DNA of 22,462 nucleotides from Thermodesulfovibrionia bacterium (GTDB lineage: Bacteria; Nitrospirota; Thermodesulfovibrionia; UBA6902), in NCBI GenBank assembly GCA_947258735.1, contig CAMYJJ010000015.1, positions 1 to 22,462 of the forward strand. The letters run 5' to 3'. The notes under the pieces were generated by a model, which made no database searches, was not told the DNA's origin, and saw only the letters and a program-made list of their open reading frames with translations. Of this stretch, positions 734 through 22,462 are shown one piece after another. Each line of letters starts with the position of its first letter. Positions within the stretch are counted from its first letter, which is position 1. The translations under genes and the position numbers were made by a program.

Positions 734-2206
734 ATGTTTATTGTAATGATAGCATCAGAATGCGCACCCGTAGCCAAGGTCGGCGGTCTGGCCGATGTGG
801 TCTATGGACTGAGCCGTGAGCTGGAGATCAGGGGCAATGATGTTGAGATAATCCTCCCCAAATATGACTGCATGCGATATGACCAGGTGTATGGACTGCA
901 GGAATCATATAATGATCTCTGGGTCCCCTATTACGACCAGTGGGTGCACTGTACTGTTTACTTCGGGTTTGTCCATGGACGCAAATGCTTTTTTATAGAT
1001 GCACACCATTCGAAAAACTTTTTCAACCGCGGTGTTTTTTACGGACACCATGATGACCCGGAGAGATTTGTTTTCTTTTGCAGGGCAGCCATGGAGTTCA
1101 TGCTGAAGTCAGGCAAAAACCCTGATATCATTCACTGCCATGACTGGCAGACCGGTATTGTCCCTGTTCTTCTGTATGATATTTACAAACAGGTCGGGAT
1201 GAGCCACCCGCGGGCATGCTACACACTGCACAACCTCAAACACCAGGGCCTGGTAGGGGAGTACGTCCTGAGAGAAACCGGGTTGAATAATGCGCCCCAT
1301 TATTTTCATTTCGACAGAATGAGGGACAACATCGACCCCTTTGCATTAAATCTCATGAAGAGCGGGATTGTGTACTCGAATTTTGTGACTACGGTCTCCC
1401 CGACATATGCAGAAGAGATCAAGTATACGGACGAGGGATACGGCCTTGGGCATACGCTGCATGTGCATCAGGGAAAATTCGGGGGCATACTAAACGGTGT
1501 TGATTATGATGTATGGAACCCCGAGACAGACCGGCATATCCCATACAGGTATGGCAGGGACAATCTGGATGTCAAGTACGGGAATAAGGAAGTGCTGCGC
1601 CACAGGTTTCTGTTAAAAAATGAATATAAACCTGTCATCGCGTACATCGGAAGACTGGATTATCAGAAAGGGGTACATCTTATTAAACATGCCATTTTTT
1701 TCGCACTGGAGCACGGCTGCCAGTTTGTGTTATTGGGTTCCGGCCCTGATCACGAGATAAACAGCTATTTCTGGAACCTCAAGCATCATCTTAATGACAA
1801 TCCTGACTGTCATCTTGAGATAGGCTATGATGAAGAGCTTTCACACCTTATATATGCAGGCTCTGACATGGTAATCGTTCCCAGCCTGTTTGAACCCTGC
1901 GGACTGACCCAGCTTATTGCAATGAAATATGGGACAGTCCCTGTTGTACGGGACACCGGCGGATTAAGAGACACTGTGTTTGATGCGGATTATGCACAGA
2001 GGCCATTTAATGAACGCAACGGGTATGTCTTTCATAATTTCAATAATGAAGGACTTGAGTCTGCGTTACATCGTGCCATAGGCATGTGGTATGAATATCC
2101 GGATTATTTCAGGCAATTAATGGAAAACGGTATGAACAGTGATCTGTCCTGGAAACATCCCGGGCAGCATTTCCTGAATATATATGACTATATCAGGGAA
2201 AAGTAA
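734..2206 (+). CDS. glgA: glycogen/starch synthase, GT5, resembling the plant SSIII/SSIV type
   Basis: This cytosolic enzyme transfers glucose from a nucleotide sugar, normally ADP-glucose in bacteria, to the non-reducing end of an alpha-1,4-glucan. The 490 residues match the usual GlgA length. The N-terminal substrate loop is AKVGGLADV (14-22), with KVGGL rather than the common bacterial KTGGL. HCHDW lies at 134-138, the phosphate-binding R307 and K312 are in GRLDYQKG, and the catalytic E387 is in FEPCGLTQL. Stretches such as ERFVFFCRAAMEF, GVHLIKHAI and LSHLIYAGSD strongly recall plant SSIII/SSIV and the bacterial enzymes grouped with them; this is from memory, not an alignment. The ATG has AGAAGG just upstream. 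A short spacer with a repeat follows before an unrelated antiporter gene, so it is probably transcribed alone. Confidence 0.95.
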   Translation: MFIVMIASECAPVAKVGGLADVVYGLSRELEIRGNDVEIILPKYDCMRYDQVYGLQESYNDLWVPYYDQWVHCTVYFGFVHGRKCFFIDAHHSKNFFNRGVFYGHHDDPERFVFFCRAAMEFMLKSGKNPDIIHCHDWQTGIVPVLLYDIYKQVGMSHPRACYTLHNLKHQGLVGEYVLRETGLNNAPHYFHFDRMRDNIDPFALNLMKSGIVYSNFVTTVSPTYAEEIKYTDEGYGLGHTLHVHQGKFGGILNGVDYDVWNPETDRHIPYRYGRDNLDVKYGNKEVLRHRFLLKNEYKPVIAYIGRLDYQKGVHLIKHAIFFALEHGCQFVLLGSGPDHEINSYFWNLKHHLNDNPDCHLEIGYDEELSHLIYAGSDMVIVPSLFEPCGLTQLIAMKYGTVPVVRDTGGLRDTVFDADYAQRPFNERNGYVFHNFNNEGLESALHRAIGMWYEYPDYFRQLMENGMNSDLSWKHPGQHFLNIYDYIREK

Positions 2207-5258: not shown

Positions 5259-5732
5259 ATGAGAAGGACAAGTAAAAAAATATCGTTACAAAAAGAGCGT
5301 TCTAAAAAAATAAAAGGGAGTTCTGGCATTACAAAACAGCAGGCCAGCACAAAGAAATCAAGCCCTAAAAATGGGAATGGCAAAAAACCATCCAAGGGTG
5401 CACGACCGATTAATGATAATGAGATATCAGGTATGAAGAAACAGTATCTGAAATCAAATGGCGCATGCAATGTTACTTTCAGATTACCGAAAGAAGCTGC
5501 ACCTGATGCGCAAGTTGTTGCAATAGTCGGTGATTTTAATAACTGGAATGTAACAGAAAATCAGATGAAAAAACTTAAGAACGGTGATTTCAAATCAACC
5601 CTTACATTACACCCTGACAAGGAATACAGGTTCAGGTACTTCATTGATAGCACTCGCTGGGAAAATGACTGGTGTGCAGATAAATACGTTCCCAATACGT
5701 TTGGTTCTGATGATTCATTGGTTATTGTCTAG
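5259..5732 (+). CDS. small glycogen-binding CBM48 protein with polybasic N-terminus
   Basis: The C-terminal half is a stand-alone CBM48 domain, the fold of isoamylase N-terminal domains and the AMPK beta glycogen-binding domain. VAIVGDFNNWN (87-97) carries the sugar-stacking tryptophan W96. YRFRYFID (123-130) and W134 continue the beta sandwich, and the protein ends in NTFGSDDSLVIV, as many AMPK-like modules do. Residues 1-65 are a disordered-looking tail very rich in Lys, Arg, Ser and Gly. There is no catalytic domain and no signal peptide. I infer a cytosolic glucan-binding protein, perhaps a scaffold or granule coat with a tail that binds nucleic acid, membrane or protein. A clear GGAG (5249-5252) supports the start. 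It is convergent with the GH13 gene. Confidence 0.85.
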   Translation: MRRTSKKISLQKERSKKIKGSSGITKQQASTKKSSPKNGNGKKPSKGARPINDNEISGMKKQYLKSNGACNVTFRLPKEAAPDAQVVAIVGDFNNWNVTENQMKKLKNGDFKSTLTLHPDKEYRFRYFIDSTRWENDWCADKYVPNTFGSDDSLVIV

Positions 5733-5787: not shown

Positions 5788-7092
5788 TCAGTCTTCAGAT
5801 GCAGCATCTCGCTCTGTTACAAGCACAATTCCCTGACCCGGCCTGAGTTCATAGGAAAATGGCTCCGGTATAAATTCCATACCATGTTCCGGCGATACGT
5901 CAGTCAACCGGGCCTTTGACTGCAACAGGTCACTCAGTCTCTCAGCATAGAAACTCTGATGGTGATAGATATCTTTATTCAGAATAAGGAGAGCTTCGTC
6001 CTGTGAATGGGTCGATGCCTTCCAGAAAAGAAGTATATTCGGATTATCACACTGAAGAATCTCGGAGGGCGACTCTTCATGAAATACCGTATACGTTTCC
6101 TTGATGTTATTAACGTTTCTGATAAATGAAGTAATATCAACCTCTGTCTCTTCCCAGTCTTCAGGCCTGGTCTTCACAACATGCATTCTCTTGCGGAAAC
6201 CAAACTCAAAACCTGACGGCATCATTGTACCGGCTGAAAAAAGCGCGGTAAAAAGATAGCGCTGCTTCAGACCTTCAATATTGCCGTTCAGTTCTTCATT
6301 GAGTCTGACCGTATCATGGCTTTCAGGGAAACTGATTGACGGCGCTATATCTCTGGTAAGGTTATACTGCTCCATAAGCCATGACCCGCGAAAGTCCCAC
6401 CATTTGGCACTGTTAAAAATATAATCAAAACCGGCGCTGGCAGTCTTCCTCGTCTGGTCAGATGAGCATCCCAATGTCTCTGCAAAAAATATCGTGTCAG
6501 GATATTTCGCCTTTGTCTCCTTTATAAGCCTCTCCCACAGACTCCCCGGAAGCTGGTACGCTGCATCACACCGAAAACCATGAAATCCGAGATCAATTAA
6601 ATACGCTACGACCCTGAGAAAAAATCTGAACATTCCTTCTCTGTCTTTTGTGTTTCTGTGATCAAACTTTGCCAGGTCTCCCCAGACGACTTTCCTTCCG
6701 TTTTCAAGGGCAAACGGATGGGCCACCTTTTCTTTTTTTCTCCACTCAAACCATTCCGGATGTTCAACTATCAGTTCAGAGTCAACGGCACAGTGGTTGA
6801 TGACCAGGTCAATCATCATTTTAAGACCATATTGCTCCGCCTGACTGGTGACCTCTTTTATCTGGTCTTCAGGGCTTAATGAACTGTTCTCATCAATGAA
6901 TAAAGGATTGATCTGAAAATAGTCCTTGATCGAATAAAGACTGCCTGAAAACCCCGTTTCCTGGATAGGATTAACAAACACCCAGTTAAAGCCCATGTCA
7001 GCGGCCCTCTTTATGTGACCTTCCCACTGCCCCGCGCTTCCTGCAAGCAGGGGAAATAAATTATATATGATCATCTTTTCCGGTTGTCTCAT
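5788..7092 (-). CDS. GH13 alpha-amylase-family enzyme, short form
   Basis: It is probably a cytosolic retaining enzyme acting on alpha-1,4- or alpha-1,6-glucan or malto-oligosaccharides. The (beta/alpha)8 barrel motifs are all present: DLVINH (95-100), GFRCDAAY with nucleophile D176, FFAETLG with acid/base E205, and SHDT with transition-state stabiliser D260. The chain has 434 residues and no N-terminal CBM48 or other added domain; a short C-terminal beta domain spans roughly 350-430. There is no signal peptide. GSLYSIKDYFQINP (50-63) recalls intracellular GH13 enzymes, but I cannot assign a subfamily or choose between hydrolase and transferase. The ATG has GGAG at a good distance. It lies last in a minus-strand series after the dikinase and isomerase-like genes, while the CBM48 protein convergent with it could supply a binding module in trans. 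Confidence 0.88.
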   Translation of the reverse strand: MRQPEKMIIYNLFPLLAGSAGQWEGHIKRAADMGFNWVFVNPIQETGFSGSLYSIKDYFQINPLFIDENSSLSPEDQIKEVTSQAEQYGLKMMIDLVINHCAVDSELIVEHPEWFEWRKKEKVAHPFALENGRKVVWGDLAKFDHRNTKDREGMFRFFLRVVAYLIDLGFHGFRCDAAYQLPGSLWERLIKETKAKYPDTIFFAETLGCSSDQTRKTASAGFDYIFNSAKWWDFRGSWLMEQYNLTRDIAPSISFPESHDTVRLNEELNGNIEGLKQRYLFTALFSAGTMMPSGFEFGFRKRMHVVKTRPEDWEETEVDITSFIRNVNNIKETYTVFHEESPSEILQCDNPNILLFWKASTHSQDEALLILNKDIYHHQSFYAERLSDLLQSKARLTDVSPEHGMEFIPEPFSYELRPGQGIVLVTERDAASED

Positions 7093-7211: not shown

Positions 7212-8018
7212 TTATTCTTTCCACATATTATACAGCCTGTCCCGTGCTTCATTCAGTAATGAAGGTGGTTCAGGCCACTGTTCAAAAATAATCGATCCTG
7301 AAAATCCGCGTCCGTTCATTCTGTCTATAAATCCTGAAATACCTGAAACATTTTCACCTGCAGGTCCGGTAAAGAGCGGAAGATGGCTGTCGCTGTCACC
7401 ATAGTTCTCATGCATATGAATATGAATAATCGGAACTGCAGGGTCCAGCAGATCAAGAAATTTCAAATAATTATTCCGGCTGAAGCTGGACAGGTTGGCA
7501 TGGCCAAGGTCCAGACACATGCCAACCTTTTCCTGTGATGTAATGTTCCGCTCTCGTATAATGTTAAATAAATTATTGAAATCTTTGGGGACCGTAAATA
7601 CGGTATTCTCAATGGCCATCCTGAGTCCTGCCTCCTCAATCTCTCTGATGACAGGAGTTATGGTATCCACAAAATGCTCAATTCCTTTCTCAATACAGAG
7701 ATGCGTATTGATAAGCGTTGCCCCTATCTCCCTGGCAAAGTCGATATCCCTGAGCATTACATCTAATTTGCCAGGTTCACACATCTCGGCCTGTAACGAC
7801 GAATGAACAGAAAGGGCTATATCATGTTTATCAGCAATGGCCCTGATATGAGACCGGGTCTTTATAGCTATATCATTGACGTCCCACCCATCACTCATAT
7901 TCTGTTTATCAGGAAACCACTCAAATGCATCAAACCCGTTTTCTACGGCATACTCAAAGGGCGCCATTACGTCTGATGCAGAAAAAGCTGTCTGGTTTCC
8001 AATCCTGATCTTCTTCAA
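7212..8018 (-). CDS. sugar phosphate isomerase/epimerase-like TIM-barrel protein
   Basis: The 268 residues fit the AP-endonuclease-2/xylose-isomerase-like TIM-barrel family, which contains sugar and inosose isomerases, epimerases and dehydratases. Likely divalent-metal ligands are E137 in AIENT, D170 and H173 in CLDLGHAN, H203 in HIHMHEN and E246 in FEQWP. The substrate cannot be read from sequence. The only start that keeps the first strand (IRIGNQTAF) is a TTG at 8016-8018; it has no Shine-Dalgarno and is immediately preceded by an array of 7-bp repeats. It lies between the dikinase and GH13 genes on the same strand, spaced by 91 and 119 bases that hold repeats, so co-transcription is possible but not certain. 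A role in sugar release from the glucan is inference from position only. Confidence 0.85.
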   Translation of the reverse strand: MKKIRIGNQTAFSASDVMAPFEYAVENGFDAFEWFPDKQNMSDGWDVNDIAIKTRSHIRAIADKHDIALSVHSSLQAEMCEPGKLDVMLRDIDFAREIGATLINTHLCIEKGIEHFVDTITPVIREIEEAGLRMAIENTVFTVPKDFNNLFNIIRERNITSQEKVGMCLDLGHANLSSFSRNNYLKFLDLLDPAVPIIHIHMHENYGDSDSHLPLFTGPAGENVSGISGFIDRMNGRGFSGSIIFEQWPEPPSLLNEARDRLYNMWKE

Positions 8019-8109: not shown

Positions 8110-11100
8110 CTATATTTGCGGTCTTGTCTGAACTACATAGTACGTGCCTTTGGCATATACCCCTTCGATGTCCTGGGGTGATCCCATGAGCTGTTCAATG
8201 GTAATACCTATATTGGTTATGGCCGATAGTATGTCATTTCTGAATTTTTCATCCCAGACCAGTGGATCTTCTGTATAGCTGACCTGCACCTTTCTTGCCT
8301 CTTCGACCATTACACTGTCATAGAGTCCTGCTCCTGCATATCCCGAGAGGTCTTCTCCATTTGAGTCTGAACGGAAGATCAGGCCTCCTCCACTTAATGC
8401 AACGCTTTTGCTTGGATATGAAATTATCTTTGGTCCGGGTCTCTTTTTACTCGAACTGAAACCAAGGGCCTTACCCGGATAATTACCCACGAGTGTCTCT
8501 CCCAGTCCGGGAACTACTTCAGCATACAGCTCATTGCTGTCGCCGCTCACCGGATCAGACGTATGTATGACAAAAGCATATTCAGCCGTAATAATCTGCT
8601 GAACAAGCACAGCCATATAAAGATCATCATCGGCAATGCCCCGGGTCCTCCGGCTGACAACGGCCCTCTCATTCCACTTGGATGCCCAGACTCCCTTTAT
8701 GCACGTCCACATTTTTTCCCAGTTTTCATGCCAGACAAGACCTTCGTCTTCCATAACGATCCGCAGTGAAGAAACCAGCTCAGGCGGTTCTTTCAGTTCA
8801 TGCAGCTTCTTTTTTATCTCTTCAAGGGTATCGGAAGACTGATCTTTCTCTGTTCGTAACATATGAATGTGCATAGCTGTTTCTTTATTGATATCAAGGG
8901 CAAGCACTTTTTCTGCAACACCAAAGGGGATGGCCACAGATGAAGGAAGGTGGATCCATTCAGGGAGTTGCCCTTTCAGCCTCTTGAGATTTAAAGACTT
9001 TCCTCCAACAATATCCTCTTTGAAATCTGATGATGAAACAACATACCCGTGTGCAGGAGAGATATTTACTTTTCCTACATCAGCTTTACCAGCTAATGAC
9101 TCCGGGATGTTGTCTCCTGTTGACTCATATGTCTCAATATCTCCTGAGGGGTTTATTCTTAAACTGATACGCTCTCCCTTCATTGCCTTTAATCTTTCAA
9201 ATGTGTCCCTGTCATAACAGGTAGCGAACAGAATGCCTGAATTTCTGGCCCTTATTGCTACATGTGCAACCAGGTCCACCAGGTCAGGCGTGATCACGGC
9301 CCGAAGACCTGAGGGCGGTTCTTCATCGCCCCGGACTTTGTCGGCAATAATAATTGTGGGCCTGTCAAATGTTCTGTCCTGCACAGACCGCAGGGATTCC
9401 ACCACCTCAATCACACCGCTTGCCTGACCCGGACTTATAATCTGCCAGTTGCCGAGGTCGGCTTTTTTGCGAAGCATGGGGTCAAGATGATGGATCAGCA
9501 GTGAGAGAATAAAAGACAGCCTTCCCCTCACTATCTCTTCGCTGAAAAGATTGATTGTCCACTTTTCTACATAAAAGGCATCACCGAGGTAGCGTGCATT
9601 CTCCTGAAACAATAAGTAATAACGGTCACTCAGATCAGCTATGGCCCTTCCCAGTCTGTCCAGTACAGATTTGGAATGAAGCGCCCGGTCCTGTCCTGTC
9701 TGTTCGGCCGCCTTGAGTTTCTTCCAGTGCACAGCACATGTTGAAAGTTCAAAATTACCATAAGAATATATCTGGTTCTCAAGCATAAGACTTATGAATT
9801 CAACAAGTTCATCCATGGGGATATGTTCCTGGATGTTCCGCTCCACAATGACCCGCAAATAGTCTTCAAGTGCAAGATCGATATAGATCATCTCCCTGAT
9901 CCGGTATTTGTCTTTATCATTACCCATCCGTTCATTAAATAATTGTCTCAGTCTTGTTATGGTTCCTGCTATCTTGAGCACAGGGACCGAAGCATCGTGC
10001 CTTGCTCGAAAAATGAGATCCAGAAGGTCTCTCATCTCATAATCCATTAAATATCCGGCAGCCTCAGCAGCCCCTTCAAGATCAGTCCCTGCATGGACCG
10101 ATTTGAGAAGCTTAAGGTAATTCTCAAAATCATAAATGAGCGCGTCTTTCAGATGGGGAATAAAATCAGGGTGGGTAACAATGGGACGCTCAAAACTCTC
10201 CAGACGCTGCTTTGTGACGCCTCCAGCCTCAAGCGTTGAATAAAAAAGGTCAAGGTTTCCGTCACTTTTGATAAACTCAAGATATGCCTCGCATATCACA
10301 ATATCATCCGGCGTGGTGTTGTTGTGCAGCTTCTGGTGCCACTCCTCCATAAAGTGTCCTGCCACCTCCTTGATATGATGGCGGTGCATGATCTGGAGGA
10401 TCTCATCCCGTATACGCTGGCCTTCGCCGCCCCTGCCCAGAGTGCTCATGATCAGGCTGATCATTTCCCTGTTATCTGGATAATTAATATAAAGATCTGC
10501 CAGCTTCAGGGTAAGCCTGTCCTGGGCATGGCTCAGTTCTTTCGGCTTCGTATTATAATTGCGCTGCCAGTCCAGCTGGCGTATAAATGAATAGCGCATC
10601 CAGACAAAGAGCAGTGCAAGGCCCTCCTCATCTTTACCGCCCCTGTCCAGGAGGTCATGGCACAGGTTAAAGCGGTGCATCAATGTCCATGAGTTCCGGC
10701 CGGTCTCTGCCTGCACAATGTCCCTGGCAATATGTGCATGAGCGGAAGATCCTTTGAACGCGTTTTGCTTCAGAAGTTCAGCAACAGGTATATGTATATT
10801 CCGGCCCCTGTTATTCAGCCACCTTTTATCATCAGCAAAGGTCAGAACAAAATGAATCCCCAGGGGAGCATCTTTTTCATTAAATTCCAGTTGTAGCCGG
10901 TTCATGTTATCCTGTAACTCAAATGCTGTCTGCACCGCCTTATCATCATATATTGTTGTGTTCGGCGGGAAGATGTGCTCTGGCGGCAATTTCCACTCAA
11001 AGGGGTTCTTAAAGGCGCCTCCCCAGTGTAACAGCAGTTTCCCTGAAATATCGGTAATAAAATGAATACGGAACGAATCCTGTTCACGGGTAACAGCAGC

Positions 11101-11577
11101 AGATATCTCGCCGTCATCATCTATTGTAAACCTCTCCCTGAACAGGACCTCCCCTGACAGGTCCTCTTCCAGGGCCTTGAGCGTATCAGGCCGTTCCTTC
11201 TCAGGCATGGGCAGTCTGATATGGTAATTCTTCCCATGATTATTGTCCCATGTGTCTTTATCAGGATAATAAAAGGCAAAGTTTATGAACCGGAAGTCAG
11301 AAGATGTATCAATACGTACTGTTATCCGGTTTTCATTACCATGTACTTCAAAGGGGCTCTGGATCGCAGTATCACCAAAGGCGATGCTGCCTGCAGGCCA
11401 GAGCAGTTCCGGAGGGATGTTCCACATATTGCTGATTTGTCTGCTCAATCCCCAGTGAAGACGGCAGTTCCCCTGTTTTTCCATATGAATGGACAACTCT
11501 ATGTGATCATCGGCTTTCTCCATATCAACAAGGAGTTTCACATTATTGCGAATTATAATTTCTTCTGTCGTTATCAT
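8110..11577 (-). CDS. gwd: alpha-glucan, water dikinase, plant GWD type with tandem CBM45-like domains
   Basis: GWD splits ATP to AMP and phosphate and puts the beta phosphate on glucosyl residues, mainly O6 in plants. Two CBM45-like starch-binding domains are at about 36-122 and 178-264, each with LHWG at its start and W-x2-N-x-G-x-N-x-H-I near its end. The central region contains EEWHQKLHNNTTPDDIVIC (411-429), almost as in plant GWD1. The phosphohistidine domain has ITPDLVDLVAHVAIRARNS (762-780) with catalytic H772. The C-terminal PPDK/PEP-synthase-like ATP-binding domain, about 850-1155, has FRSDSNGEDLSGYAGAGLYD (1068-1087) and ends QDIEGV...YVVQTRPQI. The length of 1155 is shorter than plant GWD1 (about 1400), mainly through shorter linkers. 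No transit or signal peptide is seen, so it should be cytosolic. The ATG lacks a clear ribosome-binding site. Confidence 0.93.
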   Translation of the reverse strand: MITTEEIIIRNNVKLLVDMEKADDHIELSIHMEKQGNCRLHWGLSRQISNMWNIPPELLWPAGSIAFGDTAIQSPFEVHGNENRITVRIDTSSDFRFINFAFYYPDKDTWDNNHGKNYHIRLPMPEKERPDTLKALEEDLSGEVLFRERFTIDDDGEISAAVTREQDSFRIHFITDISGKLLLHWGGAFKNPFEWKLPPEHIFPPNTTIYDDKAVQTAFELQDNMNRLQLEFNEKDAPLGIHFVLTFADDKRWLNNRGRNIHIPVAELLKQNAFKGSSAHAHIARDIVQAETGRNSWTLMHRFNLCHDLLDRGGKDEEGLALLFVWMRYSFIRQLDWQRNYNTKPKELSHAQDRLTLKLADLYINYPDNREMISLIMSTLGRGGEGQRIRDEILQIMHRHHIKEVAGHFMEEWHQKLHNNTTPDDIVICEAYLEFIKSDGNLDLFYSTLEAGGVTKQRLESFERPIVTHPDFIPHLKDALIYDFENYLKLLKSVHAGTDLEGAAEAAGYLMDYEMRDLLDLIFRARHDASVPVLKIAGTITRLRQLFNERMGNDKDKYRIREMIYIDLALEDYLRVIVERNIQEHIPMDELVEFISLMLENQIYSYGNFELSTCAVHWKKLKAAEQTGQDRALHSKSVLDRLGRAIADLSDRYYLLFQENARYLGDAFYVEKWTINLFSEEIVRGRLSFILSLLIHHLDPMLRKKADLGNWQIISPGQASGVIEVVESLRSVQDRTFDRPTIIIADKVRGDEEPPSGLRAVITPDLVDLVAHVAIRARNSGILFATCYDRDTFERLKAMKGERISLRINPSGDIETYESTGDNIPESLAGKADVGKVNISPAHGYVVSSSDFKEDIVGGKSLNLKRLKGQLPEWIHLPSSVAIPFGVAEKVLALDINKETAMHIHMLRTEKDQSSDTLEEIKKKLHELKEPPELVSSLRIVMEDEGLVWHENWEKMWTCIKGVWASKWNERAVVSRRTRGIADDDLYMAVLVQQIITAEYAFVIHTSDPVSGDSNELYAEVVPGLGETLVGNYPGKALGFSSSKKRPGPKIISYPSKSVALSGGGLIFRSDSNGEDLSGYAGAGLYDSVMVEEARKVQVSYTEDPLVWDEKFRNDILSAITNIGITIEQLMGSPQDIEGVYAKGTYYVVQTRPQI

Positions 11578-11714: not shown

Positions 11715-11747
11715 AGGGGGGCATATGTGTGTATTGCATACTCCCCT
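11715..11747. repeat. imperfect hairpin overlapping the RAYT stop codon
   Basis: AGGGG (11715-11719) pairs with CCCCT (11743-11747), and part of the AT-rich interior (GCATATG with GTATTGCATAC) can extend the stem imperfectly. The right arm GCATACTCCCCT (11736-11747) has a near direct copy, GCATGTCCCCT (12281-12291), just outside the other end of the RAYT gene. Confidence 0.4.
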
Positions 11748-12276
11748 AAGACGGCTCAACCTGAATATTCAGAGGATTATCTTTATCAAATGCCCATCGC
11801 ACCGGATTGCTCATCATATAATCCCTGATTTTATTTAATTCAATATCATTCCGTATCATATGTTCAAAATAGTTTTTTTGCCAGACGGGAATACCCGGTG
11901 TGTTGCGGATCATGTTAATCTGCCTGGTTGTTCTGTCTTTAAATGTGGAAATTATTGATCCTATTGTGTGTTTTGGCAAACGCAATACATCATGTGAAGG
12001 GATACTGCGGTTCATATTCACAATTACATGAATATGGTTTGGCATTACGATAAAATTATCCACATCAATATGAGTGGCTGCATGTTTATTGTGTCTCCAT
12101 GCCTGTTCAACAATCATCCCATATTTATTTAATTCCATGTTGCCGCTAATAATTTCACCGAATATAAACCCTCTTAACCACGAGCAGATCGTTATAAAGT
12201 ACGCCCCTGGTTCGGAAAATTCATATTCGGCTGGATAAACGCAGCGGCAATGATGTTTTTCCGGATCAAATATCAA
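11746..12276 (-). CDS. REP-associated tyrosine transposase (RAYT), Y1/HUH family
   Basis: This is a single-strand DNA transposase-like protein of the IS200/TnpA-REP family, thought to cut and move short palindromic repeats. EFSEPGAYFITICS (19-32) is the usual first strand. The metal-binding HUH motif is MPNHIHVIV (78-86) with H81 and H83, and the nucleophile is probably Y136 in KNYFEHMIRND. The 176 residues are a normal, complete length with all key residues kept. The only in-frame start before the first strand is a TTG at 12274-12276, preceded by AGGGGA about ten bases upstream; the frame closes by TGA at 12316-12318 without an ATG. Hairpins sit next to its 3' end. No second transposon gene is present, so it is a domesticated or solitary RAYT rather than a full IS605. 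Confidence 0.88.
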   Translation of the reverse strand: MIFDPEKHHCRCVYPAEYEFSEPGAYFITICSWLRGFIFGEIISGNMELNKYGMIVEQAWRHNKHAATHIDVDNFIVMPNHIHVIVNMNRSIPSHDVLRLPKHTIGSIISTFKDRTTRQINMIRNTPGIPVWQKNYFEHMIRNDIELNKIRDYMMSNPVRWAFDKDNPLNIQVEPS

Positions 12277-14908: not shown

Positions 14909-15412
14909 ATGAAAAAAATATTATTATTAACCGCAGCGCTTACTGCCTTTTTGTTTATACATTCATTTGCTCATGATAAAGCACTCCCATCACCTAACGG
15001 AATCAATCTGCCCGACGGTTATAAGGACTGGCCTGTTATCAGTGTGTCGCACAGGGATGATAATAATACACTGAGGACCATCCTCGGTAATGACATTGCA
15101 ATAAAGGCTGCAAGAACGGGAAAGACCAATCCCTGGCCTGACGGTTCAATAATCGGGAAGCTCGTCTGGAAAGACACCAATCATGAACAATGGCAAAAAG
15201 CTATTGTACCGGGCGATTTTGTTCATGCAGAATTCATGGTTAAGGATGCAAAAAAATATGCATCAACAGGCGGATGGGGATTTGCAAGATGGAAGGGTAT
15301 GGACCAAAAACCCTATGGCGACGATGCATCATTTGTCCGGGAATGTTTTGGCTGTCACACTCCTGTAAAAGATAATGATTATGTGTTCACCCGTCCTTCT
15401 TTAATGCCGTAA
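14909..15412 (+). CDS. exported cytochrome P460 family protein
   Basis: Cytochromes P460 are periplasmic c-type haem proteins with a lysine-haem cross-link; in Nitrosomonas the enzyme oxidises hydroxylamine, and related proteins may act on nitric oxide. Residues 1-21 form a signal peptide ending FAHD. The region IAIKAARTGKTNPWPDGS (63-80) and the W-rich GGWGFARWKG (121-130) fit the family. The single haem site is CFGCH (146-150) near the C-terminus, as expected. I cannot say from sequence alone which lysine would cross-link, nor whether this one has hydroxylamine oxidase activity. A perfect AGGAGG lies four bases before the ATG. It is convergent with the GH57 gene and has no partner redox gene next to it. 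Confidence 0.9.
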   Translation: MKKILLLTAALTAFLFIHSFAHDKALPSPNGINLPDGYKDWPVISVSHRDDNNTLRTILGNDIAIKAARTGKTNPWPDGSIIGKLVWKDTNHEQWQKAIVPGDFVHAEFMVKDAKKYASTGGWGFARWKGMDQKPYGDDASFVRECFGCHTPVKDNDYVFTRPSLMP

Positions 15413-15431: not shown

Positions 15432-15451
15432 GCACGGGCACCGTGCCCCTA
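15432..15451. repeat. GC-rich palindrome between convergent genes
   Basis: GGGCAC (15436-15441) and GTGCCC (15443-15448) form a near-perfect palindrome with one central base; CACGG/CCGTG is an alternative stem. The element overlaps the stop codon of the GH57 gene and lies 20 bases after the P460 stop. It resembles GGGCACGGTGCCC-type short repeats scattered in many genomes and could act as a two-way transcription stop, although no T-run is seen. Confidence 0.5.
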
Positions 15452-17032
15452 CACAAATAACTTGTAATCAATATCAGGGAAAATATTGTCCATGTGTTCA
15501 ATGGCAGAAAGGTATTTTTCTTTAATGTCTTTTTTTGAAATCGCGTTTGCCAGATAGTGAAATCTCGCTACGTGGTCCTTTACCCTTCGTTCAGCATACT
15601 CAACAGATGTTCCGCCATTTATAATAAAAGGCCAGTCTGAGCTCTGTACCAGCAACAGCTCACGCATGCACTGGTTCAGTGCGCGTCTGGTCAGTGCCGC
15701 TACCCTGCCCTTTCCATGATTTACTGCAAGCTTCTCCATTCTGTGAGCACATTCATGAAGCTGTGGATATATCCACTCAGTCTTACTGTTTAACCATGTC
15801 TGAAAGTATCCCTTATGACCCCAGGTAGATGAAGCGGGTATACTGGTCTGATGCACAGGATGGCGTTCCAGGTATGCTGAAGGTGTTATGAGCTCAAGCA
15901 CGTCCTGGTCATACGCAGCCTTGCGGATTACATAGTCAAGCCACTGCGGGCCCTCAAACCACCAGTGCCCTAAGAGCTCCGCATCAAATGGAGCGACAAC
16001 AACAGGGCTGGTCTCCATGGCAGATGCAAGGTATTCAATGTGGGCAACGCGCTTATGCAGAAAATCTCCGGCATGCTGTGCAGCACGCTCTTTCGCCACA
16101 TCGGGATTATAGTATTCCTTCCAGCCTGATGGTCCGGTTATCCTGTGGTACTTGATGCCCGTATCAACACGGATGTCCCCGGAAATGTAGGGGTGAATAT
16201 AATCATGGTCGAGGTCATATCCGATATCCCGGTAAAACTCCCGGTAATCAGGATCACCCGGGTATCCCTCTCTTGCGGACCAGACCTGTTTTGTACTTGC
16301 CCTGTCGCGACCGAATGCAGCTATCCCTGACGGAGTAACGATCGGTGCATGTACCCCGTAAAAAGGAGATACGCCTGCATTCTCAACACCGCGTGCTTCC
16401 ATAAAAAAATAAGTTATGCCCTCTTTGCAGAGAATGTCATCAAGGTCCCTGCTGTAAGCGCATTCAGGCAGCCACATGCCACCGGGCCTGAAACCGAACA
16501 CGCTTTCAACATAATCAAGCCCGTTTCTTATCTGGGCATTAACTGCCTTTGGCTGTGATGAGATAAGAGGGAGTATGGCATGAGTTGAAGACGAGGTGAT
16601 AAGTTCAACAACACCTTTTTTATGTAAATCAAGAAATGCCCGGGAGATTCTTTTTTTGTATTTTTTTGAAAATATCTCCCGCGCCTCTTTAAAAAGTGTG
16701 TTATACATAGTAGCAAGGTATTGAAGGTGGGGATCACCGGATGTTCTGTCGATCTCTTTTTTACTCAGCCTGATAAGTCCTGTCAGATGGGTCTCGTACC
16801 TCTGCTGAAGCAGTTCATCTTCCATCATCGCAAGAAGGGATGGTGATATGGATAAGGTGGTCCTGAAAGGTACTTTTTCTTTGACCAGCCGGTCAAAGAA
16901 TTTTATAAGAGGCAGGTAGGTCTCTGTCATAGCCTCAAAAAACCACCTCTCTTCAAGAAATGCTTCATACTCCGGATGACGCACGTAGGGAAGGTGCGCA
17001 TGAAGGACAAAAGCGAGATATCCCTTAGCCAC
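15449..17032 (-). CDS. GH57 1,4-alpha-glucan branching-type enzyme
   Basis: GH57 branching enzymes cut alpha-1,4 chains and reattach them by alpha-1,6 bonds. The 527 residues match the TTHA1902/TK1436 type. Motif 1 is HAHLPYVRHPE (11-21), the nucleophile is probably E190 in GGMWLPECAYS, and the acid/base is D350 in APFDAELLGHWWFEG. The C-terminal helical region (about 400-527, DUF1957-like) carries W403 and W412. There is no signal peptide. A GTG start at 17030-17032 is used; it overlaps the end of the upstream glycosyltransferase gene by 8 bases, which suggests translational coupling. No GH13 GlgB is visible in the window, so this may be the main branching enzyme. Branching activity is inferred by family; some members are poor branchers. 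Confidence 0.9.
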   Translation of the reverse strand: MAKGYLAFVLHAHLPYVRHPEYEAFLEERWFFEAMTETYLPLIKFFDRLVKEKVPFRTTLSISPSLLAMMEDELLQQRYETHLTGLIRLSKKEIDRTSGDPHLQYLATMYNTLFKEAREIFSKKYKKRISRAFLDLHKKGVVELITSSSTHAILPLISSQPKAVNAQIRNGLDYVESVFGFRPGGMWLPECAYSRDLDDILCKEGITYFFMEARGVENAGVSPFYGVHAPIVTPSGIAAFGRDRASTKQVWSAREGYPGDPDYREFYRDIGYDLDHDYIHPYISGDIRVDTGIKYHRITGPSGWKEYYNPDVAKERAAQHAGDFLHKRVAHIEYLASAMETSPVVVAPFDAELLGHWWFEGPQWLDYVIRKAAYDQDVLELITPSAYLERHPVHQTSIPASSTWGHKGYFQTWLNSKTEWIYPQLHECAHRMEKLAVNHGKGRVAALTRRALNQCMRELLLVQSSDWPFIINGGTSVEYAERRVKDHVARFHYLANAISKKDIKEKYLSAIEHMDNIFPDIDYKLFV

Positions 17033-18734
17033 GTGTGTCCCCCCGGTGTTTATTCAGCACGATCTCATAGTACATGTAATGCTGTGCGGCAATACTTTCC
17101 ATGGACGGTGACCGGCCGGCACTCGTCCGTGCTGCAGAAATCATCATGCTGTCCTTCAGGGGATTGTGCAGCAGTTCCTGGATCCCCCATACAATCGAGC
17201 CGGGATTATCAAAGGTAAGCAGCCCGTTTTTTCCATGATCAATACTGTTCACACCTGACTGGTGTGTTGCAAGCACAGGTTTGCCGTGGTCCATGGCCAT
17301 CTGCGCAAGCCCCTCACCCTGCCATGACCTTGCAGGGATGACGACAAAGTCTGATGTCATAAGAACGGCCTCAAAGGCCTTTTCGGACAGATGCCCCGGG
17401 AAACGGCACCTGTGGCTCACCCCCATATGATGTGCCCTTGCCTCAATCTCACCCTTGAGAGGTCCTTCACCGGCAAAGATAAAATATGATTCCCTGTGGT
17501 TCCGGCAGACCGTGGGAAGTGCATCCAGCATAAGGTCTGCTCCTGCAGCATGTGACATCTCACCGGAAAAAAGCACAACGCTGCTCTCACCGGGAATACC
17601 AAACCACTGTCTCGCCTCTGAAGAGAAACGGGACTGGTCAGCATGCGTATCACTCATGACATCAGGGATGATAACGACTTTTTCGGGCGGCGCATTGTAT
17701 CGTCCGGTTACCTGCTCATAGGTAGCAGAGCGGGGAACAATTACAAGGTCTGCTTCCTTGACCGATTTTTTTTCGATTGAACAGATCTTCCTTGAAAGGA
17801 CTGTCAATTTACCGGATGTCGTTCTTTGATACTCTGTGGAATGGAGAGAAAGGATCAAAGGCAGTTTTAATTTTTTCCTGGCATGTATTCCCGGCTGCGA
17901 TGAATACCAGTCATGGCAATGGACCAGGTGAAAGGCTGTTTTATTGTGCGTCTGCTCAATGTCTTTGTAAATGGTTTGTGAAACCCTGTCGATTGATGTA
18001 AATATGGACGTATCTGACACATCTAATGCATCTTTTTTGTTCTGCGTAAATACAGTTGCCCTGCTGTCAAATAGTTTCAATCCCTCAGACATGTTCATGA
18101 TAAACGTGCCGATAGAACTCTCTTCTAATGTCTCTCCATGAACATGTATGTTCACAACAGCGGCCTTAAGGGCTTCAGTTCTTCTTAACGTTGAAAGCTC
18201 ACTGTTCATCCTCTCGTACACAGGGGCATCAAAGATATTCTCAACCGTAAAGTTCCTGTTTATCATCCCCCTGATAAACATGCCCGCAGTATTGTAAACG
18301 CCCGATGGCCGGTCACGGTCAAAAAATACTGCTTCAGACCGGGCAACAGCATGAAATGAACTCCTGTGTGTAAATCCAACCTCTGCAAGATAATGCCTGG
18401 CAGTGTTCTCTATGATGAATGAGTAGTGTCCTTCATGGCTTTTTACCATCAGGTCAAAATGAGTATGTGAGTTGGCACCATCAAACATAATATCCGTGAC
18501 GTCATGAATACGCACAACCGGACGTGTCTTTTCTGCGGATATCTTCTGCTTCTTAATGAATGCATTTATTGTCCTTTCCCGGACATGCCAGTGAACATGC
18601 CCCTGTCCGGGAGTGATCATAAGAAGGGAAATATAATCAGAAGAATGTGATACAGGATAGTGCTGACCCACCTCCCATGCGATCTCCCTTAAGCGGGACT
18701 GAGAGGGCGCTGCCTTTTTCTTTTTTACCGCCAC
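17025..18734 (-). CDS. DUF4912-GT4 glycosyltransferase fusion
   Basis: An N-terminal DUF4912 domain (about residues 26-146, with LLMITPGQGHVHWHVRE) is fused to a GT-B glycosyltransferase of GT4 type. The N-lobe carries VHCHDW (271-276) and the C-lobe SGEMSHAAG and FIFAGEGPL. The usual GT4 E-x7-E motif looks altered: the region reads SWQGEGLAQMAMDHG (470-484), one residue short and lacking the second glutamate. It may be inactive, or use another residue. I chose a GTG at 18732-18734 because AGGAGG lies five bases upstream; an upstream TTG at 18836 would add 34 residues of poor coding character. The gene is coupled to the GH57 branching enzyme, so a role in glucan synthesis or priming is likely but inferred. 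Confidence 0.82.
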   Translation of the reverse strand: MAVKKKKAAPSQSRLREIAWEVGQHYPVSHSSDYISLLMITPGQGHVHWHVRERTINAFIKKQKISAEKTRPVVRIHDVTDIMFDGANSHTHFDLMVKSHEGHYSFIIENTARHYLAEVGFTHRSSFHAVARSEAVFFDRDRPSGVYNTAGMFIRGMINRNFTVENIFDAPVYERMNSELSTLRRTEALKAAVVNIHVHGETLEESSIGTFIMNMSEGLKLFDSRATVFTQNKKDALDVSDTSIFTSIDRVSQTIYKDIEQTHNKTAFHLVHCHDWYSSQPGIHARKKLKLPLILSLHSTEYQRTTSGKLTVLSRKICSIEKKSVKEADLVIVPRSATYEQVTGRYNAPPEKVVIIPDVMSDTHADQSRFSSEARQWFGIPGESSVVLFSGEMSHAAGADLMLDALPTVCRNHRESYFIFAGEGPLKGEIEARAHHMGVSHRCRFPGHLSEKAFEAVLMTSDFVVIPARSWQGEGLAQMAMDHGKPVLATHQSGVNSIDHGKNGLLTFDNPGSIVWGIQELLHNPLKDSMMISAARTSAGRSPSMESIAAQHYMYYEIVLNKHRGDTRG

Positions 18735-18810
18735 ATGGTCCTCCTGAGACAATTCATTTGAGGTTTGATAGGCAATTTTATCATACTCGGTAAAGTCATG
18801 CACTGAACAG

Positions 18811-18820
18811 GTACATGTAC
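18811..18820. promoter_or_regulatory. 10-bp palindrome GTACATGTAC upstream of the GT4 gene
   Basis: A perfect 10-bp palindrome lies 77 bases before the chosen start of the DUF4912-GT4 gene and about 140 bases before the divergent GH57/DUF3536 gene. It would suit a dimeric regulator of the divergent pair, but nothing else supports that. Confidence 0.25.
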
Positions 18821-18960
18821 CCGCAGTAGCATGCAATGATATTATTTTCCTCTCATTCTGTCCCTGTTTAAGAATATCGTATCTAAGCTGGAGTATGAGA
18901 TTTAATCATGCGATCTGGTATAGAATATTTCCATTATAAGAGTATATACAGAGGGATTAC

Positions 18961-21378
18961 ATGAACCGGCATATATGTATACATGGACATTTTTATCAGC
19001 CGCCAAGGGAAAACCCATGGCTGGAGATGATTGAGACCCAGGAGTCTGCCTATCCCTACCATGACTGGAATGAGCGTATAAACGCAGAATGCTATGAGCC
19101 GAACTCTGTCACCCGGATTCAGGACAGGGAAGGCAGGATCAACCAGATCGTCAATAACTATGAAAAAATAAGTTTCAATTTCGGTCCCACTCTTCTCGGC
19201 TGGATCGAGGAATACGCCCCCCGGGTATATGCTGCCATTCTTGAAGCTGATAAAATAAGTATTGAGAAGTTCGGCGGCCATGGGAATGCCATAGCCCAGG
19301 CCTATAACCACATGATCATGCCGCTTGCAAACAGGCATGATAAAATCACCCAGGTCATCTGGGGAATCTCTGATTTTAAAAAAAGATTTGACAGGCTGCC
19401 TGAGGGAATGTGGCTGCCTGAGACAGCTGTTGACCTTGATACCCTGAGGATCCTCCACGATCATGGCGTAAAATATACGATACTCGCACCCCGGCAGGCA
19501 AGAAAATTCAGAGACATCGGGCATGACCAGTGGACTGATGTCTCTGACGGATCAATAGATACAACCCGTCCCTACAAGGTAACGCTGCCTTCAGGCGGTT
19601 TTATAAGCGTGTTTTTTTATGACGGCGGACTTTCCCATAACATCGCCTTCGGTGATACACTTAACAAGGGGGAAGACCTTGCAGACAGACTGCTCAGGGC
19701 ATCCGGTGGCAAAAAGGAGACTCCCCATCTGGTCCATGTTGCTACTGATGGTGAGACCTTTGGCCATCATCACAAGTTCGGTGAAATGGCCCTTGCATAC
19801 TGCCTTGACCATATTGAATCAAATAAGCTTGCAAAGGTCACCAACTATGCCGAATATCTTGAATCATTTCCTCCTGCTCATGACGTCGAGATCTTTGAAA
19901 ACTCTTCATGGAGCTGCGTGCACGGTATTGAACGGTGGAAGAACAACTGCGGATGTAATTCAGGGGGCAATCCCGGATGGACGCAGGCATGGAGACGGCC
20001 TCTCAGAAACGCAATGGACTGGTTAAGGGATTCACTTATTTCCATGTATGAACAGGAGTCCTCCCCATTGTTCAGAAATCCCTGGGACGCACGAAATGGA
20101 TACATCGAGGTCATTCTTGACCGGTCTCCCGAAACTATTGAAACGTTTTTGAGTGTTCATGCAAGCAGGGACCTTTCAAAGGAAGACAAGGTCAGGGCCC
20201 TTAAGCTTCTGGAGATGCAGAAAAATACCATGCTCATGTACACGAGCTGCGGCTGGTTTTTTGACGAGGTTTCAGGCGTTGAAAATATCCAGATCATGCA
20301 GTATGCATCCAGGGCCATTCAGTATGCTGCAGAACTTCAGGGCACATCTCTTGAGCAGCAATACACAGACCTGTTAAAAGAGGCCCCCTCCAATAAATTT
20401 GAACACGCTGCCGCGGCATATGATACATATGTAAAGCCGGCGCAGTGCGACCTGTTAAGAGTAGCTGCCCACTACTGTATTTCATCAATTTTTGAGGATT
20501 ACAGTTCAGAAACCAGGATATGCTGTTACACATCAAAGAGTGATTTTTATGACCAGCTTGAAGCAGGAAAAATGAAGTTTGCCGTCGGACAGACACATAT
20601 AAGGTCTGACATAACCTGGGAAGAACGGAACATAAGCTTTGCTGTTCTCCATTTTGGGGATCATAATATAAACGCAGGAGTCAGGGACTTTATCAGCAAC
20701 GAGCAACTGAAGGAAATGAAGAAGGAATTAAAGGCCTCATTTTCCCAGGGCAATATCCCTGAACTCGTCAGGCTCATGGACAAGTATTTTGAACAAAAAA
20801 TGTATGCGTTATGGCATCTCTTTAAGGATGAACAGAAAAAGGTTCTGGACCAGATACTTGAGCTCACATATGAAGGAGTTGAGACTGCTTACCGCCAGAT
20901 TTATGAAAACAACATCACCATCATGAATTTTTATGAAAACCTCAGGCACCAGATACCGCGGCCATTTGTGGCTGCTGCCGAGTATATCATCAATACTGAT
21001 CTGAAGAAAATGTTTGAAGAAGAGACATTTGACAAGGTCCGTCTTAATCGTCTCATCGATGAGATCAGCAGATGGTCTATCAGAATTGACAGCACCACCA
21101 TGGGCTTCAAGGTCGGGGAATGGATAAATACAAAGATGGAGCACTTCAGGGACGAACCGAACAAGACCGTCCTGCCCGAGAGGATCAATGATGCGCTGGA
21201 AACCCTGGAGCCGTTATCTTTGTCACTGAATTTATGGAAGGCACAGAACATCTACTTTTCGATCAGCCAGGACTTTTTCAGAGTGATGAAGAACAGGGAA
21301 GATAATGGGGATGACTATGCGAAAAAGTGGGTACAATGCTTTTTGAAACTCGGCATTAATCTGCATGTAACGGTTTAG
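18961..21378 (+). CDS. GH57 glucan enzyme with C-terminal DUF3536
   Basis: It is likely a cytosolic enzyme acting on alpha-glucan or malto-oligosaccharide; the exact reaction of DUF3536-bearing GH57 proteins is not established. The N-terminal GH57 barrel (about 1-320) has HGHFYQPPRE (8-17), the probable nucleophile E154 in EGMWLPETAVD and the probable acid/base D263 in HVATDGETFGHH. A cysteine-rich loop WKNNCGCNSGG follows. The C-terminal half, about 480-800, is the all-helical DUF3536 region. The 805 residues are typical. The ATG has GAGGG (18951-18955) upstream. The gene diverges from the DUF4912-GT4/GH57 pair. Its stop lies eight bases before the malQ start and overlaps malQ's ribosome-binding site, so the two are co-transcribed and probably translationally coupled. 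Confidence 0.9.
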   Translation: MNRHICIHGHFYQPPRENPWLEMIETQESAYPYHDWNERINAECYEPNSVTRIQDREGRINQIVNNYEKISFNFGPTLLGWIEEYAPRVYAAILEADKISIEKFGGHGNAIAQAYNHMIMPLANRHDKITQVIWGISDFKKRFDRLPEGMWLPETAVDLDTLRILHDHGVKYTILAPRQARKFRDIGHDQWTDVSDGSIDTTRPYKVTLPSGGFISVFFYDGGLSHNIAFGDTLNKGEDLADRLLRASGGKKETPHLVHVATDGETFGHHHKFGEMALAYCLDHIESNKLAKVTNYAEYLESFPPAHDVEIFENSSWSCVHGIERWKNNCGCNSGGNPGWTQAWRRPLRNAMDWLRDSLISMYEQESSPLFRNPWDARNGYIEVILDRSPETIETFLSVHASRDLSKEDKVRALKLLEMQKNTMLMYTSCGWFFDEVSGVENIQIMQYASRAIQYAAELQGTSLEQQYTDLLKEAPSNKFEHAAAAYDTYVKPAQCDLLRVAAHYCISSIFEDYSSETRICCYTSKSDFYDQLEAGKMKFAVGQTHIRSDITWEERNISFAVLHFGDHNINAGVRDFISNEQLKEMKKELKASFSQGNIPELVRLMDKYFEQKMYALWHLFKDEQKKVLDQILELTYEGVETAYRQIYENNITIMNFYENLRHQIPRPFVAAAEYIINTDLKKMFEEETFDKVRLNRLIDEISRWSIRIDSTTMGFKVGEWINTKMEHFRDEPNKTVLPERINDALETLEPLSLSLNLWKAQNIYFSISQDFFRVMKNREDNGDDYAKKWVQCFLKLGINLHVTV

Positions 21379-21386
21379 GAGGATAT

Positions 21387-22462
21387 GTGATAAAAAGGGG
21401 CAGCGGCATTCTTCTTCATATAACTTCATTACCATCTCCGTATGGGATTGGTGATATGGGACCGGATGCCTACCGGTTTGTTGACTTCCTGGCCGAAGCC
21501 GCTCAGAGCTTCTGGCAGATACTCCCGTTAAACAGGACAAGTGCTGACTATGGTAATTCACCGTACAGCAGTGTCTCTGCCTTTGCAGGTAATCCCCTGC
21601 TGATCAGCCCTGACAGACTGGTTAAAACCGGGTTCCTCGATAAGGATGATATAAAAAAACCTCCTGGCCTATCGGTCGAGAGGGTCTCTTATAAAAAAGT
21701 GTCTGCATACAAGGAATTACTGCTTGAGCGGGCATTTGAGAAAATCCGAAACGAACTGGCAGTGCATCAGGATTTTCAGCGTTTCTGCACTGACAACGCA
21801 TACTGGCTTGAAGACTTCAGCCTTTTTATGTCCATCAAGGAAAATAACAAAGGAGCGGAATGGGGAGACTGGCCTGAAGATCTCAGGGACAGGAATAAAG
21901 AGGCATTAATGGAATGTCAAAGTACATTCAGTGCCGGTATATTGAAAGAAAAATTTCTTCAGTTTCTGTTTTTAAACCAGTGGAAGGCATTGAAACATTA
22001 TTGTGAGAGTAAGAACATACAGATTATCGGAGACATCCCCATTTATGTTAATTATGACAGCGCAGATGTGTGGGCTCACCCTGACATATTCAGTCTTGAT
22101 ACCTCCAGAAAACCTGATCATGTTGCAGGGGTGCCACCCGATTACTTCAGCGCAACAGGACAGTTATGGGGTCATCCGGTGTATAAGTGGGACGTCATCA
22201 GACAGTCAGGGTATGCATGGTGGATAGAGAGAATACGTCATAATTATGATCTTTTTCACGTGTTCAGGCTGGACCATTTCAGGGGATTTGTGGGGTACTG
22301 GCAGGTACATTCATCAGAAGATACCGCCATAAACGGTAAATGGGTGCCGGCGCCTGCAGATGATTTTTTCAATACCCTTTTAAAACATGTACCGGCCGGC
22401 GCTATCATTGCCGAGGACCTTGGGATCATCACTGATGATGTGCGGGCAATTATAAGCAGGTT
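21387..22462 (+). CDS. malQ: 4-alpha-glucanotransferase, 3' part beyond the window
   Basis: MalQ (disproportionating enzyme, GH77) transfers maltosyl and longer units between alpha-1,4-glucans and releases glucose. I translated this frame by hand; it stays open for 358 codons to the window edge, against about 500 for a full enzyme. It starts GSGILLHITSLPSPYGIGDM (5-24), the standard MalQ opening. PLNRTSADYGNSPYSSVSAF fits the family but has NRTSAD where many have LGPTGYG. The nucleophile D296 is in FRLDHFRG and the acid/base E343 in IIAEDLGI; the third acidic residue lies beyond the window. The start is GTG with AGGAGG four bases upstream, and that site overlaps the stop codon of the preceding GH57 gene. 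Confidence 0.95.
   Translation, partial: MIKRGSGILLHITSLPSPYGIGDMGPDAYRFVDFLAEAAQSFWQILPLNRTSADYGNSPYSSVSAFAGNPLLISPDRLVKTGFLDKDDIKKPPGLSVERVSYKKVSAYKELLLERAFEKIRNELAVHQDFQRFCTDNAYWLEDFSLFMSIKENNKGAEWGDWPEDLRDRNKEALMECQSTFSAGILKEKFLQFLFLNQWKALKHYCESKNIQIIGDIPIYVNYDSADVWAHPDIFSLDTSRKPDHVAGVPPDYFSATGQLWGHPVYKWDVIRQSGYAWWIERIRHNYDLFHVFRLDHFRGFVGYWQVHSSEDTAINGKWVPAPADDFFNTLLKHVPAGAIIAEDLGIITDDVRAIISR

Follow-up and report, generated by a model that had tools for sequence, protein, structure and literature searches.

Parts of one study describe alpha-glucan, water dikinase (GWD) as limited to organisms that accumulate starch and propose that it arose with the primary plastid; the GWD tree in the same source includes bacteria, some of whose copies were possibly gained by transfer (PMC6260743). 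In the section available, a 2026 review places GWD and the related dikinase PWD in a chloroplast pathway (PMC12892837), and no dikinase was found in the first 300,000 of the 445,374 characters of a 2024 review of prokaryotic alpha-glucan enzymes (PMC11046441). Here we analyse a 22,462-nucleotide stretch of a Thermodesulfovibrionia bacterium (contig CAMYJJ010000015.1; hereafter the window, to which all coordinates refer) that encodes a plant-type GWD directly followed by a TIM-barrel protein, designated TIM1. Bacterial GWD by itself is already known, being named in databases and included in part in a 2018 tree. The novelty lies in the neighbouring TIM barrel, in a PWD homologue encoded by related operons, and in the association of both with GWD, all of which were missed by an earlier note on this DNA made from the sequence alone. 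Among the titles and abstracts listed from the open-licence PMC literature, none concerned a bacterial PWD, a fusion of a TIM barrel with a dikinase, or a prokaryotic phosphoglucan phosphatase.

The domains, conserved residues, homology, gene order and co-occurrence described below are what we observe. They suggest that these bacteria probably operate a glucan phosphorylation-dephosphorylation cycle, in which GWD, accompanied by PWD in many relatives, would add phosphate and a putatively metal-binding TIM barrel of the Endonuclease IV (Endo IV) type would serve as the phosphatase.

The window protein is a plant-type GWD

The dikinase and its parts are located as follows.

8110..11577, minus strand: alpha-glucan, water dikinase (GWD), 1155 amino acids, ATG start; from Pfam, solved-structure matches and the predicted structure
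11215..11574, minus strand: first CBM45-type beta domain, GWD residues 2-121; PF23166, modelled strands 2-121
10786..11151, minus strand: second CBM45-type beta domain, GWD residues 143-264; PF23166 at 147-265, modelled strands 143-264
9460..10746, minus strand: helical connecting domain, GWD residues 278-706, with EEWHQKLHNNTTPDD; matches 9ha9/9qvi (E 1e-87), modelled helices
9124..9450, minus strand: phosphohistidine domain, GWD residues 710-818; PF22973, H772 codon at 9262-9264
8119..9039, minus strand: ATP-binding domain, GWD residues 847-1153; PPDK_N, predicted structure

Pfam assigns to this protein two stretches of PF23166, the GWD1 Ig-like N-terminal domain (E 3.3e-47), which we take to be CAZy's CBM45, together with the GWD1 phosphohistidine domain PF22973 at residues 710-818 (E 1.1e-35) and PPDK_N (E 3.9e-24). 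The predicted structure (mean predicted local distance difference test score, pLDDT, 83) presents in order two beta domains at about residues 2-121 and 143-264, helices at 278-706, the phosphohistidine domain at 711-818 and an ATP-binding domain extending to 1153. Alignment reveals residues common to plant GWDs in both the first (H41, W42, G43, W52, W110) and the second (H184, W185, W195, W253) CBM45-type domain, and the sequence EEWHQKLHNN begins at residue 411. Residue 772 is the histidine within LVAHVAIRAR, and a histidine occupies this position in all 40 aligned GWD sequences (the window protein, 36 database homologues and three plant GWDs). Pfam upholds the earlier note's view that this bacterium, whose nearest named kin are Nitrospirota, encodes a GWD of plant type equipped with both CBM45-type domains. 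The note's plant-like order of parts with a C-terminal ATP-binding end (Pfam and predicted structure) and its phosphohistidine at H772 are upheld as well.

The closest solved-structure sequences are two entries for the helical domain of chloroplastic alpha-glucan water dikinase (E 1.4e-87 and 5.3e-87), and identity to the three plant GWDs is 40-41%. At these E-values chance is excluded, and by its domains, their order and its catalytic histidine the window protein classes as a GWD. It resembles plant and algal GWD1 (EC 2.7.9.4) in possessing all domains in order, the catalytic histidine and two CBM45-type domains at this level of identity, whereas it is shorter than potato GWD (1155 versus 1464 amino acids), adjoins a TIM barrel and carries leucine in place of the redox cysteine of the plant CFATC motif. 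This position, 783, is leucine in the window protein and in all 37 of the 37 non-plant sequences aligned, and cysteine in all three plant sequences. The CFATC disulfide pair, a hallmark of the redox-regulated chloroplast subtype, was not found in the window GWD among the aligned sequences, and we therefore assign the protein to GWD and not to that subtype. These alignments suggest that the bacterial enzymes lack the thioredoxin switch of plant GWD. Red algal GWDs likewise lack the pair, according to part of one source (PMC11986951).

The window protein might instead be a misnamed enzyme of central metabolism resembling phosphoenolpyruvate (PEP) synthase or pyruvate phosphate dikinase (PPDK), as might be thought from relatives that databases name phosphoenolpyruvate synthase and from NCBIfam matches solely to the PEP synthase/PPDK superfamily. 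Those matches are confined to the ATP-binding end and fall far below the cut-off (at best 64 versus 866 bits), plant GWD and PWD themselves give the same pattern, and GWD-specific domains are found in the window protein. Similarly, PEP synthase chains among solved structures reach only its ATP-binding part (best E 1.3e-12). Comparison of the whole predicted fold retrieves the ATP-binding domains of rifampin phosphotransferase and PEP synthase, with no plant GWD entries among the best 50 listed. Comparison with GWD, PWD and PEP synthase, a check that the earlier note had proposed, puts the protein nearest to GWD by structure search, by tree and by pairwise score: all 65 GWD open reading frames (ORFs) from the window and 63 related loci, split and cut ones included, score potato GWD above Arabidopsis PWD. 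We regard the central-metabolism alternative as barely credible and, by analogy with the plant enzymes, a glucan kinase role for the window GWD as likely.

Distribution of bacterial GWD

When 5.8 billion proteins were searched at E<=0.001, with scoring limited to 7994 candidates, at least 1582 matched the window GWD. The three Pfam domains are present in all 120 of the matches listed, among which the best non-self identity is 79%. The earlier note had expected homologues to sit under generic PEP-utilising names; some are indeed called phosphoenolpyruvate synthase and others hypothetical, but many already bear the name alpha-glucan,water dikinase (JGI). A single pattern scan of species genomes matched 69 stretches and gave 63 loci from them, or 64 with the window. 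Their record titles name Nitrospirae, deltaproteobacteria/Desulfobacterales, the anammox bacteria Scalindua and Anammoxibacter, Verrucomicrobia, Nitrospinota, an Acidobacterium and some Proteobacteria. Both the form with two CBM45-type domains and a shorter form with a single PF23166 stretch occur (three of three short ones scanned with Pfam).

Counted evenly over genomes, GWD is sparse: of 295 genomes from the phylum of the nearest complete relative of the window (G001, which holds locus L001), 23 have PF22973 above its family cut-off, as do 3 of 297 from the phylum of a second locus (L032) and 0 of 14 control genomes, with two genomes whose matches fall under the cut-off (G078, G552) entered as lacking the domain. 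The GWD of a 75% identical relative (L039:9998-13421) is split into two ORFs of 537 and 594 amino acids, and is either broken or misassembled. Two Nitrospirae-titled genomes each hold two diverged GWD copies (L043 and L058; L047 and L062), and TIM1 was found in none of these four loci.

A TIM barrel with Endo IV-like residues follows GWD

Directly after GWD in the window lies the following gene.

7212..8018, minus strand: TIM1, AP-endonuclease-2-type TIM barrel (PF01261), 268 amino acids, putative phosphoglucan phosphatase

Gene order was compared by tblastn over all 64 loci, many of which are short, so that the counts are lower bounds. TIM1 is present in 39 loci; among the 52 with at least 1 kb downstream of GWD, it follows GWD at a distance of at most 2 kb in 37 and lies further away in one (L033), and was not found within the locus in 14.

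The TIM1 model is of high confidence (pLDDT 93), and H72, H106, E137, D170, H173, H199/H201/H203, D210, H212 and E246 are invariant in all 36 aligned TIM1 sequences. These metal-type residues resemble the ligands that part of one source gives for an Endo IV (PMC13113976); the correspondence rests on direct alignment for H106, E137, D170 and H173, and on order and spacing for the others. Among PDB sequences, the nearest to the TIM1 profile is MJ1311, of unknown function, after which come Endo IVs at E 2.5e-5 and 0.004 and then an AP endonuclease at 0.011. TIM1 belongs to the same superfamily (PF01261) as Endonuclease IV (Nfo) and the CbiR phosphodiesterase and has similar metal-type residues, but scores below the NCBIfam cut-off of either (23.7 versus 129.65 bits for Nfo, 30 versus 105 bits for CbiR). 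Given the Nfo score, we do not class it as an Endo IV.

TIM1 and the second barrel described below (TIM2) could alternatively be sugar or sugar-phosphate isomerases or epimerases, acting on phosphorylated glucose that is freed by breakdown of a glucan phosphorylated by GWD. The TIM1 fold does match that of sugar 3-epimerase, a likeness at the level of fold. In the sequence profile search, proteins named sugar isomerase or epimerase rank below the Endo IVs (0.039 and up), and the nine positions that resemble Endo IV ligands are all conserved in TIM1. Epimerases have a one-metal ligand set, smaller than these nine positions. We consider the isomerase or epimerase explanation unlikely, though deserving of more weight than the other alternatives treated here. 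As for removal of glucan phosphate by TIM1 and TIM2, we judge the chances to be close to even, perhaps marginally short of it. The SEX4, LSF2 and laforin phosphoglucan phosphatases differ from TIM barrels in fold and chemistry, and TIM1 and TIM2 are like them in the proposed job alone.

A PWD homologue and a second barrel in related loci

In many loci a second dikinase is encoded behind GWD, mostly of 1130-1220 amino acids where uncut. All 23 such ORFs score Arabidopsis PWD above potato GWD; identity to Arabidopsis PWD is 35-42% in 22 of them, mostly across about 900-970 columns, and 32% in L038. An LSH...R phosphohistidine motif resembling that of plant PWD is present in all 23 bacterial PWD sequences compared (18 in the main alignment and five aligned separately, with the cut L026 left out and L074 included). 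By tblastn, PWD occurs in 23 of the 64 loci, and GWD-TIM1-PWD is the order in every one of them; a single ORF encodes both TIM1 and PWD in 21 of these loci, and L027 and L038 have a separate gene for each. The five second dikinases scanned with Pfam each consist of a TIM barrel, GWD1_pHisD and PPDK_N.

Relative to plant PWD (EC 2.7.9.5), the bacterial partner is thus alike in core homology and in its LSH-type motif, whereas the N-terminal CBM20 is replaced by TIM1 in 21 loci. The plant-type CBM20 was not found on bacterial PWD: a TIM barrel stands there in all five fusions scanned, and the protein of G001 has no N-terminal domain. As judged from sequence, the second dikinases are bacterial PWD homologues of another architecture, with a TIM barrel in the place of CBM20. 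This partner belongs to related loci; in the window, tblastn found no PWD, and GWD is followed by the lone TIM barrel (7212-8018) and then a GH13 gene. G001 has the gene order of the window, with GWD at 0.04 Mb, and its barrel-less PWD lies elsewhere on that record, at 2.11 Mb, where TIM2 overlaps the end of PWD by four bases.

TIM2, of about 340-380 amino acids, comes next after TIM1-PWD in 17 of the 64 loci. Of the PWD loci that extend far enough to include it, 17 of 18 have it, the exception being L020, and by tblastn it was found in none of 41 loci without PWD. Like TIM1, TIM2 conserves residues resembling the metal ligands of Endo IV. TIM2 gave no Pfam match at E<=0.1 and no NCBIfam match at E<=0.001. 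In two loci (L031:16463-18808 and L061:13451-15817) one ORF holds both TIM2 and a GH13 enzyme, which ties TIM2 to glucan breakdown.

Co-occurrence of the barrels with the dikinases

A TIM1 profile of 34 sequences (E<=1e-30) detected the barrel in 21 of the 295 genomes from the phylum of G001. Every one of these belongs to the 23 genomes that carry the GWD/PWD phosphohistidine domain, and the barrel was detected in none of the other 272 (Fisher 3.6e-30). In the second phylum, 3 of 297 genomes have TIM1, the very three that have PF22973, and TIM1 is in none of the other 294 (Fisher 2.3e-7; these Fisher values, and that for TIM2 below, ignore relatedness of the genomes). Over both phyla together, 24 of the 26 genomes that have the phosphohistidine domain also have TIM1, against 0 of the 566 that lack the domain. 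TIM2 was detected in 7 of the 295 genomes, all among nine with a PWD-like match (Fisher 1.0e-12), where this label denotes a second, lower-scoring PF22973 match whose sequence was examined for G001 only; the second match of G013 is a second GWD.

In 10 of the 21 genomes, TIM1 lies on another contig than GWD or far from it, so that adjacency alone does not explain the co-occurrence. Of these ten unlinked sites eight were examined, and only that of G202 is beside GlgA, GH13 and GH57 genes; none of ten neighbouring genes scanned at the remaining sites is a glucan gene, and G077, G098 and G114 have a common neighbourhood around the unlinked TIM1. If only GWD mattered, TIM1, TIM2 and PWD would be passengers in a conserved gene cluster, a view with which the shared operon order and the two genomes that have GWD and lack TIM1 (G011 and G013) agree. 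Against this view, TIM1 accompanies GWD in 10 of 21 genomes without visible adjacency, is present in 0/272 and 0/294 genomes without the phosphohistidine domain, and shares a single ORF with PWD in 21 loci, and we hold this explanation to be improbable.

A SEX4-type DSPc domain scored above its cut-off in 4 of the 23 GWD genomes. All three near genomes have matches to GlgC-like and phosphorylase-like genes, with GlgC above the cut-off in two. A GlgX-type debranching enzyme is above the cut-off in two of the three, too weak an indication to bear on the earlier note's supposition that the glucan may be insoluble or partly crystalline.

Relationship to the plant dikinases

Trees were built from 91 sequences, reduced to 80 by thinning at 80% identity, in which eukaryotes are represented by six GWD and six PWD sequences, from flowering plants only. 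In a quick tree, the branches that place plant GWD within bacterial GWD are starred, and those that place plant PWD within bacterial PWD are unstarred. We do not claim that the plant dikinases are nested within the bacterial ones, as constrained trees are slightly likelier: forcing together the 47 bacterial GWD sequences or the 21 bacterial PWD sequences slightly improves the likelihood (approximately unbiased, AU, test p 0.558 and 0.641, respectively). The trees leave the direction of transfer, from plants to bacteria or the reverse, undecided. Since the GWD-PWD pair is found in loci whose titles name several phyla, it is at any rate not restricted to plastid-bearing lines.

Glucan genes of the window

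Genes for glycogen synthase, GH57 branching enzyme, GH77 and GH13 enzymes lie near the window GWD.

734..2206, plus strand: glycogen/starch synthase GlgA, 490 amino acids (Pfam, NCBIfam)
5259..5732, plus strand: CBM48 protein, 157 amino acids (Pfam)
5788..7092, minus strand: GH13-type alpha-amylase/glucanotransferase, 434 amino acids, behind TIM1 (Pfam)
15449..17032, minus strand: GH57 1,4-alpha-glucan branching enzyme, 527 amino acids (Pfam, NCBIfam)
17025..18836, minus strand: DUF4912 - glycosyltransferase, 603 amino acids (Pfam)
18961..21378, plus strand: GH57 with DUF3536, 805 amino acids (Pfam)
21387..22460, plus strand: GH77 4-alpha-glucanotransferase, truncated at the window end

By tblastn, homologues of the GH13 enzyme occur in at least 27 of the 64 loci, of the GH57 branching enzyme in at least 13 and of GlgA in at least 11. 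DUF4912 appears twice in the glucan region, with the glycosyltransferase at 17025-18836 (minus strand) and, at 1-423 (minus strand), with none in the visible part. A gene resembling REP-associated tyrosine/IS200-type transposases (11746-12276, minus strand; below family cut-offs) lies immediately upstream of GWD, and a Cytochrome P460 family protein (14909-15412, plus strand), with homologues of equal length in L001 and L039, is encoded amid the glucan genes.

A putative glucan phosphorylation cycle

In the cycle that we propose, GlgA and the GH57 branching enzyme, whose genes are observed, would make a storage alpha-glucan. By analogy with the plant enzymes, GWD would move the beta-phosphate of ATP to H772 and then to C6 of glucose units, with positions as given in part of one source (PMC11986951), and bacterial PWD, where present, may add phosphate at C3. 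Phosphorylation would open packed chains to the GH13, GH57 and GH77 enzymes encoded nearby, which are presumed to be active on them. Phosphate might then be removed by TIM1 from the GWD product and by TIM2 from the PWD product, a suggested division of labour that would take the place of plant SEX4 and LSF2.

It is possible, although we lean somewhat toward doubt, that the full cycle runs in bacteria from five or more phyla (by the titles of records that are mostly metagenome-assembled). They would do so with GWD, PWD and a new, Endo IV-type class of phosphatase (TIM1 for C6, TIM2 for C3), with PWD and phosphatase joined in one protein in many species, as an old prokaryotic pathway that is the source of both plant dikinases or shares a common origin with them. 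With the bacterial GWD-PWD operon pair, both enzymes gain smaller relatives, and the origin of starch phosphorylation becomes open to test. We know of no phosphoglucan phosphatases outside the SEX4/laforin type; if the TIM barrels are phosphatases, they would be the first, and would be useful for producing starch with chosen phosphate. Should the broader proposal be true, starch phosphorylation, long tied to the origin of the plastid, would be an old prokaryotic pathway.

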